From assembly GCA_028284325.1 (NCBI GenBank), contig JANQRX010000005.1, positions 310,001-374,000 of the forward strand: DNA of 64,000 nucleotides, given 5' to 3'. The notes under the pieces were generated by a model, which was given only the letters and a program-made list of their open reading frames with translations, was not told the DNA's origin and did not search any database. Position numbers and translations under genes: made by a program. Of this stretch, positions 39,023 to 45,541 are shown one piece after another (within the stretch, counting starts at the first letter, position 1; each line of letters begins with the position of its first letter). The stretch comes from Bauldia sp. (GTDB taxonomy: Bacteria > Pseudomonadota > Alphaproteobacteria > Rhizobiales > Kaistiaceae).

Positions 39023-39037
39023 GAACAAAACATGAAC
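39023..39037 (+). promoter_or_regulatory. Alphaproteobacterial LexA/SOS box upstream of imuA
   Basis: GAAC-AAAACAT-GAAC (exact GAACN7GAAC); overlaps the first ATG of the imuA ORF. Confidence 0.85.
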
Positions 39038-39973
39038 ATTGGGTCTATGATGACCAGCATGTCCGCCATGTCCGGCGCCAACGTCGCCGTCGACGGCCGT
39101 CTCGTCCAGCTTCGCCGCCGGATCGCGATCCTTGAGGGGCGCGGCCTCCTGCCCGGCGCGCTTGCCGGCGGCCTGCGGGCGCGCGATCCCGACACCCCGG
39201 CGGGACAGTCGCTGTCGCCGCGGCGCGGCCGTCCGGTCCTGCCGTTCGGTCTTGCCCCCCTCGATGCCTGTCTCGGCGGCGGGCTGCGGCGCAACGCCCT
39301 TCACGAACTGCGCGGGATGGCCAGCCGCAACGGTGCCGCCACCGGTTTCGCCCTGGCCCTGCTCGCCAGGCTGTCCCGTGATGACGACCGTCCGGTCCTG
39401 TGGATCATGGAGGCCGCGGCCGCACGCGAGGCCGGCGCGCTCTACGGCGTCGGCCTCGACCGTTTCGGGCTTGCGGCCCGGCAGGTTGTGCTTGTCAACG
39501 TTCGTACCCCCGCCGAGGCGCTCTGGACCTTCGAGGAGGCGCTGCGCTGCCGCGGACTTGCCGCGGTCATGGCCGAAATCCGCGGACATCCGCGCCTCCT
39601 CGATCTGACCGCCAGCCGCCGGCTGGCGCTCCGGGCCCGTGACAGCGGGGTGATGGCGCTGCTCCTGCGCCAGGTCGAGCAGCCCGAGCCGGGGGCGGCG
39701 CTCACCCGCTGGCAGGTGGTGCCGCGGCCGACCCGGCATCCCGAGCTCTATCCCGCCGGCATCGGTCCGCCGGCCTGGCAGGTGACCCTTGAGCGCAACC
39801 GGCGCGGCGCCACCGGTGTCTTTGATCTGGAGTGGGATCATGCAACGCGTACCTTCGCAGCGATCGACCGCGCCCGCGCGGCGGCTTCTGGCCCTGTGGC
39901 TGCCGCGCCTGTCGACCGATCGTCTGCACCGTCAGGCGCTCGGACGGTCGTGGCGCTCCGGGACGCCTCCTGA
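39032..39973 (+). CDS. imuA: ImuA, SOS mutagenesis protein (start probably downstream, e.g. 39047 to 39068)
   Basis: LRRRIAILEGRGLLP...LPFGLAPLDACLGGGLRRNALHELRG...; RecA-like fold; followed by imuB. Confidence 0.9.
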   Translation: MNIGSMMTSMSAMSGANVAVDGRLVQLRRRIAILEGRGLLPGALAGGLRARDPDTPAGQSLSPRRGRPVLPFGLAPLDACLGGGLRRNALHELRGMASRNGAATGFALALLARLSRDDDRPVLWIMEAAAAREAGALYGVGLDRFGLAARQVVLVNVRTPAEALWTFEEALRCRGLAAVMAEIRGHPRLLDLTASRRLALRARDSGVMALLLRQVEQPEPGAALTRWQVVPRPTRHPELYPAGIGPPAWQVTLERNRRGATGVFDLEWDHATRTFAAIDRARAAASGPVAAAPVDRSSAPSGARTVVALRDAS

Positions 39974-41441
39974 GGCGCCGCTTGCCGTCGTCGCCAAGGT
40001 CAGGAACGCCATGCGGCTCGTGGCGACCGACGCGGTTGCCGAGCGTCATGGCCTGACCCGCGGGCAGTCGCTGGCCGATGCCCGTGCCATCCTGCCGGCG
40101 CTCGATGCCGTCGACGACGATCCCGAAGCCGACGCCCGGCTTCTCGCCGTCACCGCCGACTGGGCGGAACGCTACACCCCCCTGGTCGCGCTCTCCGGCG
40201 CCGACGATCTGATGCTCGACATCACCGGGTGCGCCCATCTGTTCGGCGGCGAGGCCGCGCTCCTTGCCGATGTGCAGGCACGGATCGGCGACCAGGGCTT
40301 CGCCGGTCGCGCGGCCATCGCCGATACGCCCGGCGGGGCGTGGGCGCTGTCGCGCTACGGGGCGCCCACAGTGGTGCCGGTCGGCGGCCTTGCGGCGGCC
40401 CTCGAACCCTTGCCGATGGCCGCACTTCGTCTCGACGTGGAGACCGTGGCGGCCATGGACCGGGTCGGGCTCAAGACCATCGGACAGGTCATCGCGATGC
40501 CGCGCGCGCCGCTGGCCGCCCGTTTCGGCGCCGCCCTGATCCGGCAGCTCGACCGGGCGCTCGGCCACGACGAGGAGGCGATCAGTCCCCGCCGGCCGAC
40601 ACCGTCGCTGATGAGCGAACGTCGCTTTGCCGAGCCGATCGCGCGCGAGGAGGATATCGCCGCGACGCTGGCCGCCCTCGCGGCGTCGCTGGCCGAGGCC
40701 CTGGAGCGTCACGGCCAGGGCGCGCGGCTGCTCGACTACAGCCTGTTCCGGGTCGACGGCGTGGTGGCCCGCATCCGGGTCGGGGCCAGCCGGCCGGTCC
40801 GATCGCCGAAGCTGATCCTCTCGCTCTTCCGCGAAAAGTTTGCTGCCCTCGGCGACAGCCTCGACGCCGGCTTCGGTTTCGATACCGCGCGCCTGTCGGT
40901 GCTCGAAGCCGCCGTCACCACCGGGGCACAGGTCGATCTTGCCGGCGACGCGGCCGGGGAAGCCGATCTGGAGCAGCTCGTCGACCGGATCGGCGCCAGG
41001 CTCGGGGCCGGCAGCGTCAGGACGATTCGACGACACGGCAGCCATGTGCCGGAACGCGCCGTCGTCCATCGCTCGTGGAGCGAAGGGGGGACGGCAACGG
41101 CCGCCATGCCCGGCTTCCGCGAGGCCCCCGACGACGCCCCGGATGATGGGCCGCTCGAACGGCCGGTCCGCCTGTTTGCGCATCCCGAGCCGGTGGAGGC
41201 GCTGGCCGAGGTGCCGGACGGTCCGCCGGTGCGCTTCCGCTGGCGCCGGGCCGTCTTCCAGGTCGCCCGCGCCGAAGGGCCGGAGCGGATCGCCTCGGAA
41301 TGGTGGCGCGAGGACAGCCTCACCCGCGACTATTTCCGCGTCGAGGACCCGACCGGCCACCGCTTCTGGCTCTATCGCGAGGGGCTCTACGGACGCGAGA
41401 CGGCCGCCCCGCGCTGGTTCCTGCACGGGGTGTTCGCATGA
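39840..41441 (+). CDS. imuB: ImuB, Y-family DNA polymerase-like protein
   Basis: RRLLALWLPRLSTDRL...HGLTRGQSLADARAILPAL...DDLMLDITGCAHLFGGEAALLADVQARI...MDRVGLKTIGQVIAMPRAPLAARFG. Confidence 0.95.
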   Translation: MQRVPSQRSTAPARRLLALWLPRLSTDRLHRQALGRSWRSGTPPEAPLAVVAKVRNAMRLVATDAVAERHGLTRGQSLADARAILPALDAVDDDPEADARLLAVTADWAERYTPLVALSGADDLMLDITGCAHLFGGEAALLADVQARIGDQGFAGRAAIADTPGGAWALSRYGAPTVVPVGGLAAALEPLPMAALRLDVETVAAMDRVGLKTIGQVIAMPRAPLAARFGAALIRQLDRALGHDEEAISPRRPTPSLMSERRFAEPIAREEDIAATLAALAASLAEALERHGQGARLLDYSLFRVDGVVARIRVGASRPVRSPKLILSLFREKFAALGDSLDAGFGFDTARLSVLEAAVTTGAQVDLAGDAAGEADLEQLVDRIGARLGAGSVRTIRRHGSHVPERAVVHRSWSEGGTATAAMPGFREAPDDAPDDGPLERPVRLFAHPEPVEALAEVPDGPPVRFRWRRAVFQVARAEGPERIASEWWREDSLTRDYFRVEDPTGHRFWLYREGLYGRETAAPRWFLHGVFA

Positions 41442-41455
41442 GCGGCGTGAGGGCG

Positions 41456-41869
41456 TCAGCCGGTGATCTTTTCGCGCGCCGCCTGGGCGAGAAACGCCGA
41501 GCGGGTGAGGCCGCGCGAATCCGCTGCCTCGTCGATCTGTTCAAGCAGGCCGCGTTCGACCGTGACGTTGACGCGTACGGTGCGGCCGGGATCGGCCAGC
41601 AAGGGAACGAGCAAGGTCGTCGCGCCGCGTTTCAGGGCCTTGCGAACCTCCCGGTCGCTCATGGCATCCGCGATCGCGCGGGGCGTCGGCACATCGCGGC
41701 CGTTGCTCTCCAGCGCTTCGACGTGCTGGCGGAGCATCTCCGCCGCGACGCGGGGAAGATCGTCAAAATCGTCGGCGGCCGGAAAGCAGCCGGACATGTC
41801 GGGAAACCACATGCCGAAGGCGCTGTCCGCGTCCTTTTCGACGACGCCGAGATAGTAGGTGGTGGCCAT
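41456..41869 (-). CDS. hicB: HicB-family antitoxin
   Basis: MATTYYLGVVEKDADSAFGMWFPDMSGCFPAADDFDDLPRVAAEMLRQHVEALESNG...RVNVTVERGLLEQIDEAADSRGLTRSAFLAQAAREKI: HicB fold plus RHH C-terminus. Confidence 0.92.
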   Translation of the reverse strand: MATTYYLGVVEKDADSAFGMWFPDMSGCFPAADDFDDLPRVAAEMLRQHVEALESNGRDVPTPRAIADAMSDREVRKALKRGATTLLVPLLADPGRTVRVNVTVERGLLEQIDEAADSRGLTRSAFLAQAAREKITG

Positions 41870-41881
41870 TCAACTCATGAC

Positions 41882-42073
41882 TCAGGTTTTCCATCCGGCG
41901 ATCCGATAGATCGACCTGACCTGGCCGACCGGCAGGTCCTTCTTCGGATGGGTGATGGTGATCAACTCCATCTTATCGGGGTGTTTGAACGTGTGGTGGT
42001 CGCCCTTCACACGATCGAGTTCCCATCCGTCCCGCCGAAGCATCCGCAGAAGTTTGCGGCTGTTCGATTCCAT
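41882..42073 (-). CDS. hicA: HicA-family mRNA interferase toxin
   Basis: MESNSRKLLRMLRRDGWELDRVKGDHHTFKHPDKMELITITHPKKDLPVGQVRSIYRIAGWKT: G-D-H-H catalytic region and dsRBD-like fold of HicA. Confidence 0.93.
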   Translation of the reverse strand: MESNSRKLLRMLRRDGWELDRVKGDHHTFKHPDKMELITITHPKKDLPVGQVRSIYRIAGWKT

Positions 42074-42169
42074 GCGCGCCTCCGAAAGGCTCTGTTCTCA
42101 ACCATGGCCAATGTCCCGTTCCATTGATGTGTATAAAAATAGCGATGATTCGACGAGGAGGTCAACCCC

Positions 42170-45100
42170 ATGACCACCTTCGCCGAACTCGCCGTCACCA
42201 CCAATTTCTCCTTCCTGCGCGGAGCCTCGCACCCCGAGGAGCTGGTGTTCGAGGCGGCGAAGCTGGGGCTTGCCGGCGTCGCCGTGGCCGACCGCAATTC
42301 GCTCGCCGGTGTCGTGCGCGGCCATCTGGCGGCGAAGGAAGCGGGGCTCCGCTACGCCGTCGGCTGCCGGCTGGTCTTTCGTGACGGTACCCCCGACATC
42401 CTCGTCTGGCCCACCGACCGGATCGCCTATGGCCGCCTCTGCCGGCTGCTCACCCTCGGCAACCGGCGCGCCGAGAAGGGCGATTGCCACCTCGATCTCG
42501 GCGATCTCCTGACCTGGGGGCAGGGCCTGATCCTCGGCGTCTGTCCGCCGACATCCGTCGACGACCGCCTGCGCACGGTGCTGCGGCGTCTCGCCGACGC
42601 CTTTCCCGGCCAGGTGCGCTTGATGGCGGCCATGACCTACGGGGCGGGCGATCATCGACGGCTGGCGATGCTGGCGGATCTCGCCCGGCGCTGCCGCACG
42701 CCGCTGATGGCGAGCAATCTGCCGCTCTACCACGTACCGGAGCGCCGGCAGATGCAGGACGTGGTCACCTGCATCCGCGAGCACACCACGCTTGCCGAGG
42801 CCGGCTATCTCCTGGCCGCCAACGCCGAACGTCATCTGAAGGACGCGGCGGAGATGGCGCGCCTGTTCCGCGCCTGGCCGGACGCGGTGGCGGAGACCCG
42901 GGCGGTCCTGGAGAAGCTGGCCTTCAGCCTGGAGGAGCTGCGCTACCAGTATCCGGACGAACCGACCGGGGCCGGACGGACGCCCCAGGAGGCGCTGGAG
43001 GTGCTGACCGAGGAGGGGGCCGACAGGCGCTACCCCGACGGGGTGCCGGACAAGGTGCGCGCCGCCCTCGATCACGAACTGAAGCTGATCGGCGAGCTCG
43101 ACTACGCCCCCTACTTCCTCACTGTCTACGACGTCGTCCGTTTCGCCCGCGAGAACGGCATCCTGGTGCAGGGCCGGGGTTCGGCCGCCAATTCGGCCGT
43201 GTGCTTCGCCCTCGGCATCACCGAGGTCGATCCCGACCGGGTCGATCTCCTGTTCGAGCGCTTCGTTTCGGCGGAGCGCAACGAGCCGCCCGACATCGAC
43301 GTCGATTTCGAGCACGAGCGGCGCGAGGAGGTGATGCAGTACATCTACAAGAAGTACGGCCGCGAGCGCGCCGGGTTGGCCGCCACCGTCATCACCTACC
43401 GCTCGCGCTCGGCGGTGCGCGAGGTCGGCAAGGCGTTCGGCCTCTCGGAAGATGCCGTCGGCGCCCTGTCGGGCACCGTGTGGGGCTGGTCCGATGGCGG
43501 CGTGCGCGAGGTCGACGTGAAACGCGTCGGGCTCGATCCGGACGAGCGCACCGTGGCGCAGGTGATGGCGCTGACGCAGGAGATTTCCGGTTTCCCTCGC
43601 CACCTGTCACAGCATGTCGGCGGCTTCGTCATCACCCGCGACCGGCTCGACGAAGTCTGCCCGATCATGAACGCGGCGATGGACGACCGCACCACCGTCG
43701 AGTGGGACAAGGACGACCTCGACGCCCTCGGCATCCTCAAGATCGATGTGCTGGCGCTTGGCATGCTGTCCTGCATCCGCCGCGCCTTCGACTTCATGGA
43801 CAAGCACTACGGCGCCGCGCCGACGCTTGCCTCGATCCCACCCGACGACCAGGCCGTCTACCGCATGCTCCACCGCGCCGATTCGCTAGGTGTGTTCCAG
43901 GTCGAGAGTCGGGCGCAGATGTCGATGCTGCCGCGGCTGAAGCCGAAGACCTTCTACGACCTCGTGATCGAGGTGGCGATCGTGCGGCCGGGGCCGATCC
44001 AGGGCGACATGGTCCATCCCTATCTGCGGCGGCGCAGCGGTCTGGAGACCGTCACCTATCCGGCGCCGTCGCCCGAACACGGACCGCCCGACGAACTGGA
44101 GCGGGTGCTCGGCAAGACCCTCGGGGTGCCGCTGTTCCAGGAGCAGGCGATGCGGATCGCCATCGTCGCCGCCGGCTTCACGCCCGGCGAGGCCGACAAG
44201 CTGCGCCGCGCCATGGCCACCTTCCGCCGGGTCGGCACCATCGGCAACTTTCGCAACAAGATGGTGGAGGGCATGGCCGCCCGCGGCTATGAGCGCGACT
44301 TCGCCGAACGCTGCTTCCGCCAGATCGAGGGCTTCGGCGATTATGGCTTTCCCGAAAGCCACGCGGCGAGCTTCGCGTTGCTGGTCTACGCCTCGTGCTG
44401 GCTCAAGTGCCACTACCCGGACGTCTTCTGCGCCGCCCTGCTCAACGCCCAGCCCATGGGCTTCTACGCCCCTGCGCAGATCGTCCGCGACGCGGAGCGC
44501 CACGGCGTCCAGGTGCTCGCCCCCGACATCAACCGGTCCGACTGGGATGCGACGCTGGAGAAATCCGACGATCCGCCGCCGCCCCTTCACCCGACCCATG
44601 CCGAGATGAAAGACGACATCCGCAGCACCCACGCGGTGCGGCTCGGGTTGCGGCAGGTCAAGGGGCTGCGCGAGGAGGATGTGCAGGTCCTGATGGAGCG
44701 GCGCGCCGGCGGCTATGATTCGGTGCGCGACCTGTGGCTGCGCTCGGGCCTGGCGCGGGCGACGATCGAACGGCTGGCCGATGCGGACGCCTTCCGTTCC
44801 ATCGGGCTCGATCGCCGGGACGCGCTGTGGGCGGCGCGGGCGCTCGGAACGAAAGGCAAGCGGACCGGCGCAACCGACCGGCTGCCGTTGTTCGATGTCG
44901 CTGCCCGGTCGGAGGTGACGAACGAACCCGATGTCGACCTGCCGCCAATGCCGGTCGGCGAGCATGTGGTCAACGACTACCGCTTCCTCGGCCTGTCCCT
45001 GAAGACGCATCCGCTGGCGCTGCTGCGCGACCGCCTCGCCGAACGCCGGGTCGTGCCCAATGCGACGCTGCGCGCGACGCCGAACGGCCGGCGCGTGGCG

Positions 45101-45541
45101 ATCGCCGGGCTGGTGATCATCCGCCAGCGTCCCGGCACCGCCAAGGGTGTCATCTTCGAGACGCTGGAGGACGAAACCGACATCGCCAACATCATCGTCT
45201 GGCCCAAGACCTTCGAGCGCTACCGGCCGGTGGTGCTCGGGGCGCGGCTCATCAGGGTGACCGGCAGGGTGCAGAGCGAGAGCGGCGTCATCCATGTCGT
45301 CGCCGACCACCTGGAGGACCTGACCCCGATGCTGGCGGTGCTCGCCGCCGACCACGGGGGCGTGGAGGCCCATGCGCGGGCCGATGAGGTCAAGCACCCG
45401 CCGACCGATATTCGCTCCAAGAACGGCCCACGCTCGCGCCTCGACCCCCGGCCACGGATCGCCCCGGCGATCGTCAGCGACCCGGCCGCCGTCGCCGCGG
45501 CCAACCACAAGGTGATGCCGAAGGGCCGCAACTTCCACTAG
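42170..45541 (+). CDS. dnaE2: Error-prone DNA polymerase DnaE2
   Basis: FAELAVTTNFSFLRGASHPEELVFEAAKLGLAGVAVADRNSLAGVVRGH...; AGGAGG ribosome-binding site upstream; C-family polymerase; downstream of imuAB. Confidence 0.96.
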   Translation: MTTFAELAVTTNFSFLRGASHPEELVFEAAKLGLAGVAVADRNSLAGVVRGHLAAKEAGLRYAVGCRLVFRDGTPDILVWPTDRIAYGRLCRLLTLGNRRAEKGDCHLDLGDLLTWGQGLILGVCPPTSVDDRLRTVLRRLADAFPGQVRLMAAMTYGAGDHRRLAMLADLARRCRTPLMASNLPLYHVPERRQMQDVVTCIREHTTLAEAGYLLAANAERHLKDAAEMARLFRAWPDAVAETRAVLEKLAFSLEELRYQYPDEPTGAGRTPQEALEVLTEEGADRRYPDGVPDKVRAALDHELKLIGELDYAPYFLTVYDVVRFARENGILVQGRGSAANSAVCFALGITEVDPDRVDLLFERFVSAERNEPPDIDVDFEHERREEVMQYIYKKYGRERAGLAATVITYRSRSAVREVGKAFGLSEDAVGALSGTVWGWSDGGVREVDVKRVGLDPDERTVAQVMALTQEISGFPRHLSQHVGGFVITRDRLDEVCPIMNAAMDDRTTVEWDKDDLDALGILKIDVLALGMLSCIRRAFDFMDKHYGAAPTLASIPPDDQAVYRMLHRADSLGVFQVESRAQMSMLPRLKPKTFYDLVIEVAIVRPGPIQGDMVHPYLRRRSGLETVTYPAPSPEHGPPDELERVLGKTLGVPLFQEQAMRIAIVAAGFTPGEADKLRRAMATFRRVGTIGNFRNKMVEGMAARGYERDFAERCFRQIEGFGDYGFPESHAASFALLVYASCWLKCHYPDVFCAALLNAQPMGFYAPAQIVRDAERHGVQVLAPDINRSDWDATLEKSDDPPPPLHPTHAEMKDDIRSTHAVRLGLRQVKGLREEDVQVLMERRAGGYDSVRDLWLRSGLARATIERLADADAFRSIGLDRRDALWAARALGTKGKRTGATDRLPLFDVAARSEVTNEPDVDLPPMPVGEHVVNDYRFLGLSLKTHPLALLRDRLAERRVVPNATLRATPNGRRVAIAGLVIIRQRPGTAKGVIFETLEDETDIANIIVWPKTFERYRPVVLGARLIRVTGRVQSESGVIHVVADHLEDLTPMLAVLAADHGGVEAHARADEVKHPPTDIRSKNGPRSRLDPRPRIAPAIVSDPAAVAAANHKVMPKGRNFH

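Follow-up and report, generated by a model that had tools for sequence, protein, structure and literature searches.

An intact hicAB toxin-antitoxin (TA) module lies on the antisense strand between imuB and dnaE2 of an imuA-imuB-dnaE2 SOS mutagenesis cassette in the 3.58-Mb genome of Bauldia sp. (G000; Kaistiaceae, Hyphomicrobiales). It probably acts as a resident addiction module of this cassette, with dnaE2 expressed in the SOS response by read-through from the imuA promoter. The window, which is the whole stretch of 64,000 nucleotides analysed here (G000:C9:310001-374000), contains the following features around the insertion.

39023-39037, + strand: LexA-type SOS box GAACAAAACATGAAC, the sole perfect GTTCN7GTTC in the cassette, at the imuA start
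39032-39973, + strand: imuA (NF033429 ImuA_translesion, E 5e-14, below the curated cut-off)
39840-41441, + strand: imuB (PF00817, PF11799)
41438-42127, + strand: bridging ORF, 229 codons from a vestigial ATGA through the antisense hicAB, ending in TGATG 42 nt before dnaE2
41456-41869, - strand: hicB antitoxin (PF15919 HicB_lk_antitox, E 1e-24, 87.5 bits; RHH_1 at the C-terminus)
41882-42073, - strand: hicA toxin of the dsRBD-like RNase family (PF07927 HicA_toxin, E 7e-20)
42129-42145, no strand assigned: AT-rich element GTGTATAAAAATAGCGA
42136-42165, - strand: hicA promoter-like site TTGACC-18-TATTTT, its -35 over the dnaE2 Shine-Dalgarno sequence (0.2 sites expected)
42155-42161, + strand: dnaE2 Shine-Dalgarno sequence GAGGAGG, read from the sequence
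42170-45541, + strand: dnaE2 error-prone polymerase (PRK05672, 1432.9 bits, cut-off 939)

The hicAB insertion in the mutasome

The three mutasome genes lie on one strand in the expected order, and imuB and dnaE2 are separated by 728 bp that include the antisense hicAB. The true start of imuA is probably slightly downstream of 39032, because the LexA box covers the ATG at this position. Both hic genes are intact and score far above the Pfam cut-offs (71.3 bits for HicA in the profile search against PF07927, cut-off 27), and structure matches link HicA to PDB 6g26 (E 1e-19) and HicB to PDB 4p78 (E 3e-12). The original prediction of a HicA toxin and a HicB antitoxin opposite in strand to imuAB-dnaE2 is thus borne out by the Pfam and structure matches, and the coordinates agree with the distances that it gave, which are 14 bp between the stops of hicB and imuB (41441) and 96 bp between the starts of hicA and dnaE2. 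The HicA-family toxin and the HicB protein, which has a partial RNase-H-like and a DNA-binding domain, are encoded in the same operon on one strand with a 12-bp spacer. His26 of HicA aligns to position 29 of chain 6g26_E, where the residue is Ala. We take this Ala to be an inactivating His-to-Ala change, which would make His26 the catalytic histidine of HicA. The same genome also contains a second full hicAB (G000:C11:292980-293556) and a brnTA module (G000:C5:60536-60784), both outside the mutasome.

All 28 genomes of the family in the dataset were searched, and imuB was matched in 27 of them. In most loci with both genes, the dnaE2 ATGA or GTGA overlaps the imuB stop by 4 bp. This confirms the assumption that dnaE2 directly follows imuB in the usual cassette, and the proposed synteny check in relatives indeed recovered hicAB-free junctions, typically with the 4-bp ATGA overlap. 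The window retains a vestigial ATGA over the imuB stop at 41438. Together with the usual overlap in the relatives, this remnant identifies hicAB as an insertion. In four relatives (G004 (C17), G012, G017, and G006), dnaE2 itself consists of separate matching pieces within one open frame, which suggests in-frame insertions inside this gene; one matching piece of the G006 dnaE2 contains an internal stop.

Recurrence of TA modules at the imuB-dnaE2 junction

Another genus of the family (G001) carries an antisense hicAB at the same junction, with hicB and hicA 56% and 62% identical to those of the window. The neighbouring imuB and dnaE2 share about 54-59% identity between the two genomes, and the similar values for the hic genes are as expected if these genes were kept under selection. 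The same slot is occupied by antisense brnT-brnA in G002, G004, G005, and G010 and by antisense brnTA with an adjoining hicB fragment in G012, and in G013 brnA alone remains. The Pfam models PF04365 and PF14384 score above cut-off in G002, G004, and G012, as do BrnT in G005 and BrnA in G013. Wherever a TA module is found at the junction, it is antisense, and since hicAB recurs in other genomes, its arrangement in the window is not an assembly artefact. The G012 locus argues that brnTA succeeded hicAB in this lineage, a case to be read with caution because its sequence comes from a metagenome-assembled genome, as a contig of 3.5 kb.

Most mutasome cassettes have no TA module. The junctions of G003, G015, and G017 contain little or no insert, and genus g9 (on the Kaistia side) has either the overlap or repeat-like inserts, which measure 148-412 bp in seven g9 genomes. 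Among the sampled Hyphomicrobiales beyond the family, no TA module was found at the junction in the loci examined, except on a plasmid of Rhodoplanes serenus (NZ_LR026982.1, 53.8 kb). This plasmid contains the best plasmid match of HicB, which sits antisense between imuB and dnaE2. Its region NZ_LR026982.1:1-14000 (L280) encodes a phage tail gene of the TipJ family, and the replicon may be a phage-plasmid. Of the five plasmid cassettes looked at, the other four had no TA module at the junction. Three Roseibium/Labrenzia junctions (L075, L076, and L084) contain repeat-rich inserts of 0.27, 1.5, and 3.0 kb, respectively. The sense frame is open up to the dnaE2 ATGA in L075 and in L076, where a 514-aa ORF is present, and the L084 insert has a 536-aa sense ORF that is Fic-like in appearance. 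Judged by titles and abstracts, none of the candidate papers searched appears to describe a TA module inside imuB-dnaE2.

Origin of the inserted modules

Such recurrence might simply reflect an insertion hot spot, a junction that accepts any insert and at which TA modules landed repeatedly by chance, with no role in or effect on the mutasome. The repeat-like inserts of the seven g9 genomes would fit this explanation, as would the imuB tree, in which G000 adjoins G006 and is far from G001, and a larger HicB tree, in which the junction copies require at least two label changes and a non-junction copy from G385 is nested among them. The latter copy, situated between argC-like and phaC-like genes (read from translations by eye), is also nested with G000 and G012 in the HicB-only tree. 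A clade of junction HicB only was present with 13 rows and was gone once G385 and more rows had been added. However, the junction hicAB form one clade with G385 (93/92) and the junction brnTA form another (89/93), the antisense orientation is without exception, and G012 points to a succession at one site. A pure hot spot thus appears quite unlikely. The modules may go back to an old insertion that some lineages later lost, may have been transferred together with the cassette, or may have been inserted repeatedly. The recurrence in slot and orientation is compatible with a coupling of the TA module to the SOS response, and also with inheritance, joint cassette transfer, or site constraints.

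Sense reading frames through the antisense genes

At all six junctions that contain brn genes (brn-type), the sense frame is stop-free from the ATGA or GTGA at the imuB stop and ends exactly at the ATGA or GTGA of dnaE2. The gaps of 664, 640, 616, 613, 940, and 358 nt are all 1 mod 3, and the spacers differ only by multiples of three on the imuB side (38, 35, 14, 17, and 14) as well as on the dnaE2 side (68, 59, 59, 50, and 41). The brnA-only allele of G013 is 255 nt shorter than that of its sister G010. The same antisense phase is stop-free in 5/5 brnTA modules at the junction versus 1/18 distinct modules of similar G+C elsewhere (L178 and L204 counted as one module; L186 is the G004 junction itself), which corresponds to a hypergeometric probability of ~2e-4 by hand arithmetic for junction copies that share ancestry. 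A conservative codon-resampling null gave a P product of 0.004 over the six loci, which are not independent because of their shared ancestry. Inserts of 90 nt or more are present in 28 distinct loci, some of them also of shared ancestry; 17 of these gaps are 1 mod 3, and about nine would be expected.

The window's own bridging ORF was considered too, and by codon resampling it is not above chance. Its openness is unremarkable because both hic genes occupy the codon-aligned antisense phase, in which few stops occur. The corresponding frame of G001 ends 207 nt early. As the bridges of the hic-type loci (the window, G001, and the Rhodoplanes plasmid) are inexact, the strict bridge characterises the brn-type junctions only. 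Judging from sequence, translation of dnaE2 in the hic-type loci appears to begin at a local ribosome-binding site.

LexA boxes and the expression of dnaE2

In the family, imuA has a GAACN7GAAC box upstream at 25 of the 26 loci, and the 26th is cut by the locus end. For dnaE2, the original prediction that neither GAACN7GAAC nor GTTCN7GTTC occurs in front of the gene held in a pattern search of the window, which found no LexA box upstream of dnaE2 even with one mismatch allowed. None of the TA-bearing junctions has a perfect LexA box before dnaE2, and G001 contains one-mismatch matches only. As a degenerate LexA site, the best candidate was GTTCCATTGATGTGT, which was rejected with two mismatches; the GTGTATA element fits hicA instead. 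Elsewhere in the genome, GTTCATGTTTTGTTC, a LexA-type box identical to that of imuA, occurs at G000:C5:267215-267229 (L245), ~200 nt upstream of a replicative dnaE1-like gene. Three perfect GTTCN7GTTC boxes are found in G000:C11:161468-166318 (L247, L248) together with ORFs that resemble uvrA, a Ku-like gene, and ssb (named by eye), as expected for an SOS regulon.

The insertion could also have uncoupled dnaE2 from the SOS response and placed it under a constitutive promoter near 42130, as the original prediction had offered as its alternative. The AT-rich GTGTATAAAAATAGCGA, which is located upstream of dnaE2 in both G000 and G001, and the strong Shine-Dalgarno sequence of the window's dnaE2 would be in line with this possibility. 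However, the imuB-dnaE2 interval of the window contains neither a promoter nor a terminator that could be found on the sense strand, and the only promoter-like site within 41300-42400 is the one on the minus strand at 42136-42165. Moreover, GTGTATAAAAATAGCGA resembles elements before other hicA genes, several of which have TATACAC/GTGTATA-like elements upstream, and thus likely represents the hicA promoter or HicB operator, a function deduced from this resemblance. The preserved frame of the brn-type junctions further implies that dnaE2 still depends on imuAB and is most likely read through from there. Uncoupling is therefore not favoured and, in our assessment, very unlikely. Read-through across the antisense hicAB, which had been proposed for the SOS induction of dnaE2, would be the likeliest supply, given the missing sense promoter and terminator and the stop-free sense frame across the insert.

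According to the read-through model, a HicAB module with its own promoter would have been inserted antisense at the imuB-dnaE2 ATGA overlap, either in an ancestor or in a cassette copy that was moving horizontally. It would then have been kept with the cassette as a resident stabilising (addiction) module, or BrnTA took its place in this role. In the SOS response, read-through from the imuA promoter, which LexA controls, would supply dnaE2. Over the insert, the sense RNA may be translated via the bridging ORF, which would lessen Rho-dependent polarity (protection from Rho by translation: PMC10135430, on E. coli in vitro). In the brn-type loci, the ATGA or GTGA overlap at the end of the bridge would pass ribosomes on to dnaE2, and in the window dnaE2 would instead use its own strong Shine-Dalgarno sequence.

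A more far-reaching possibility is that the damage-induced imuAB-dnaE2 transcript meets hicAB head-on. Collision or antisense RNA would then cut hicAB expression, the labile HicB would drop, and the freed HicA would arrest growth during mutagenic repair. The head-on arrangement, in which the hicA promoter lies immediately at dnaE2, the second TA family in the same orientation in relatives, and the antisense hicAB on a plasmid are consistent with such coupling, but several relatives have the same mutasome without a TA module, and site constraints or common ancestry can account for the orientation. We regard this scenario as doubtful. The same applies to the wider proposal, which seems rather improbable to us, that the junction permanently hosts antisense TA modules which can be exchanged for one another, that SOS transcription and translation couple mutagenesis to a growth-arresting RNase, and that the sense frame is selected for translation. 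If read-through across a resident module is true, an SOS mutagenesis operon outlives invasion by TA modules via a translatable bridge on their antisense strand, and the TA module travels with the mutagenesis cassette on chromosome and plasmid. The effect of the SOS response on the embedded TA module and the stabilisation of mutagenesis cassettes by TA modules are directly testable now.

Comparison with known systems

The Caulobacter-type imuA-imuB-dnaE2 (imuABC) of alphaproteobacteria is an SOS mutagenesis cassette (PMC1839093, which cites Galhardo et al. 2005) and shares with the window the gene order, the direction, the GTTCN7GTTC box at imuA, and the absence of such a box at dnaE2. The window differs by the 728 bp with antisense hicAB that split imuB from dnaE2. 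Closest in layout is imuAB-hicBA-dnaE2 on NZ_LR026982.1, which has the same junction and orientation and whose hicA and hicB are 68% and 57% identical to those of the window; unlike the window, it is plasmid-borne and has a 915-nt insert with stops in every frame and thus no open bridge. The BrnT-BrnA type II modules (PF04365, PF14384) of the relatives occupy the same slot in the same orientation as the window's hicAB, but belong to different toxin and antitoxin families, and their through-running sense frame joins dnaE2 exactly. Compared to HicAB type II modules (PF07927; PF15919 with RHH; 6g26, 4p78), the module in the window is alike in its toxin-first order, short spacer, domains, and the TATACAC/GTGTATA element 5' of hicA, and differs in location only, as it resides within an SOS operon and antisense to it.
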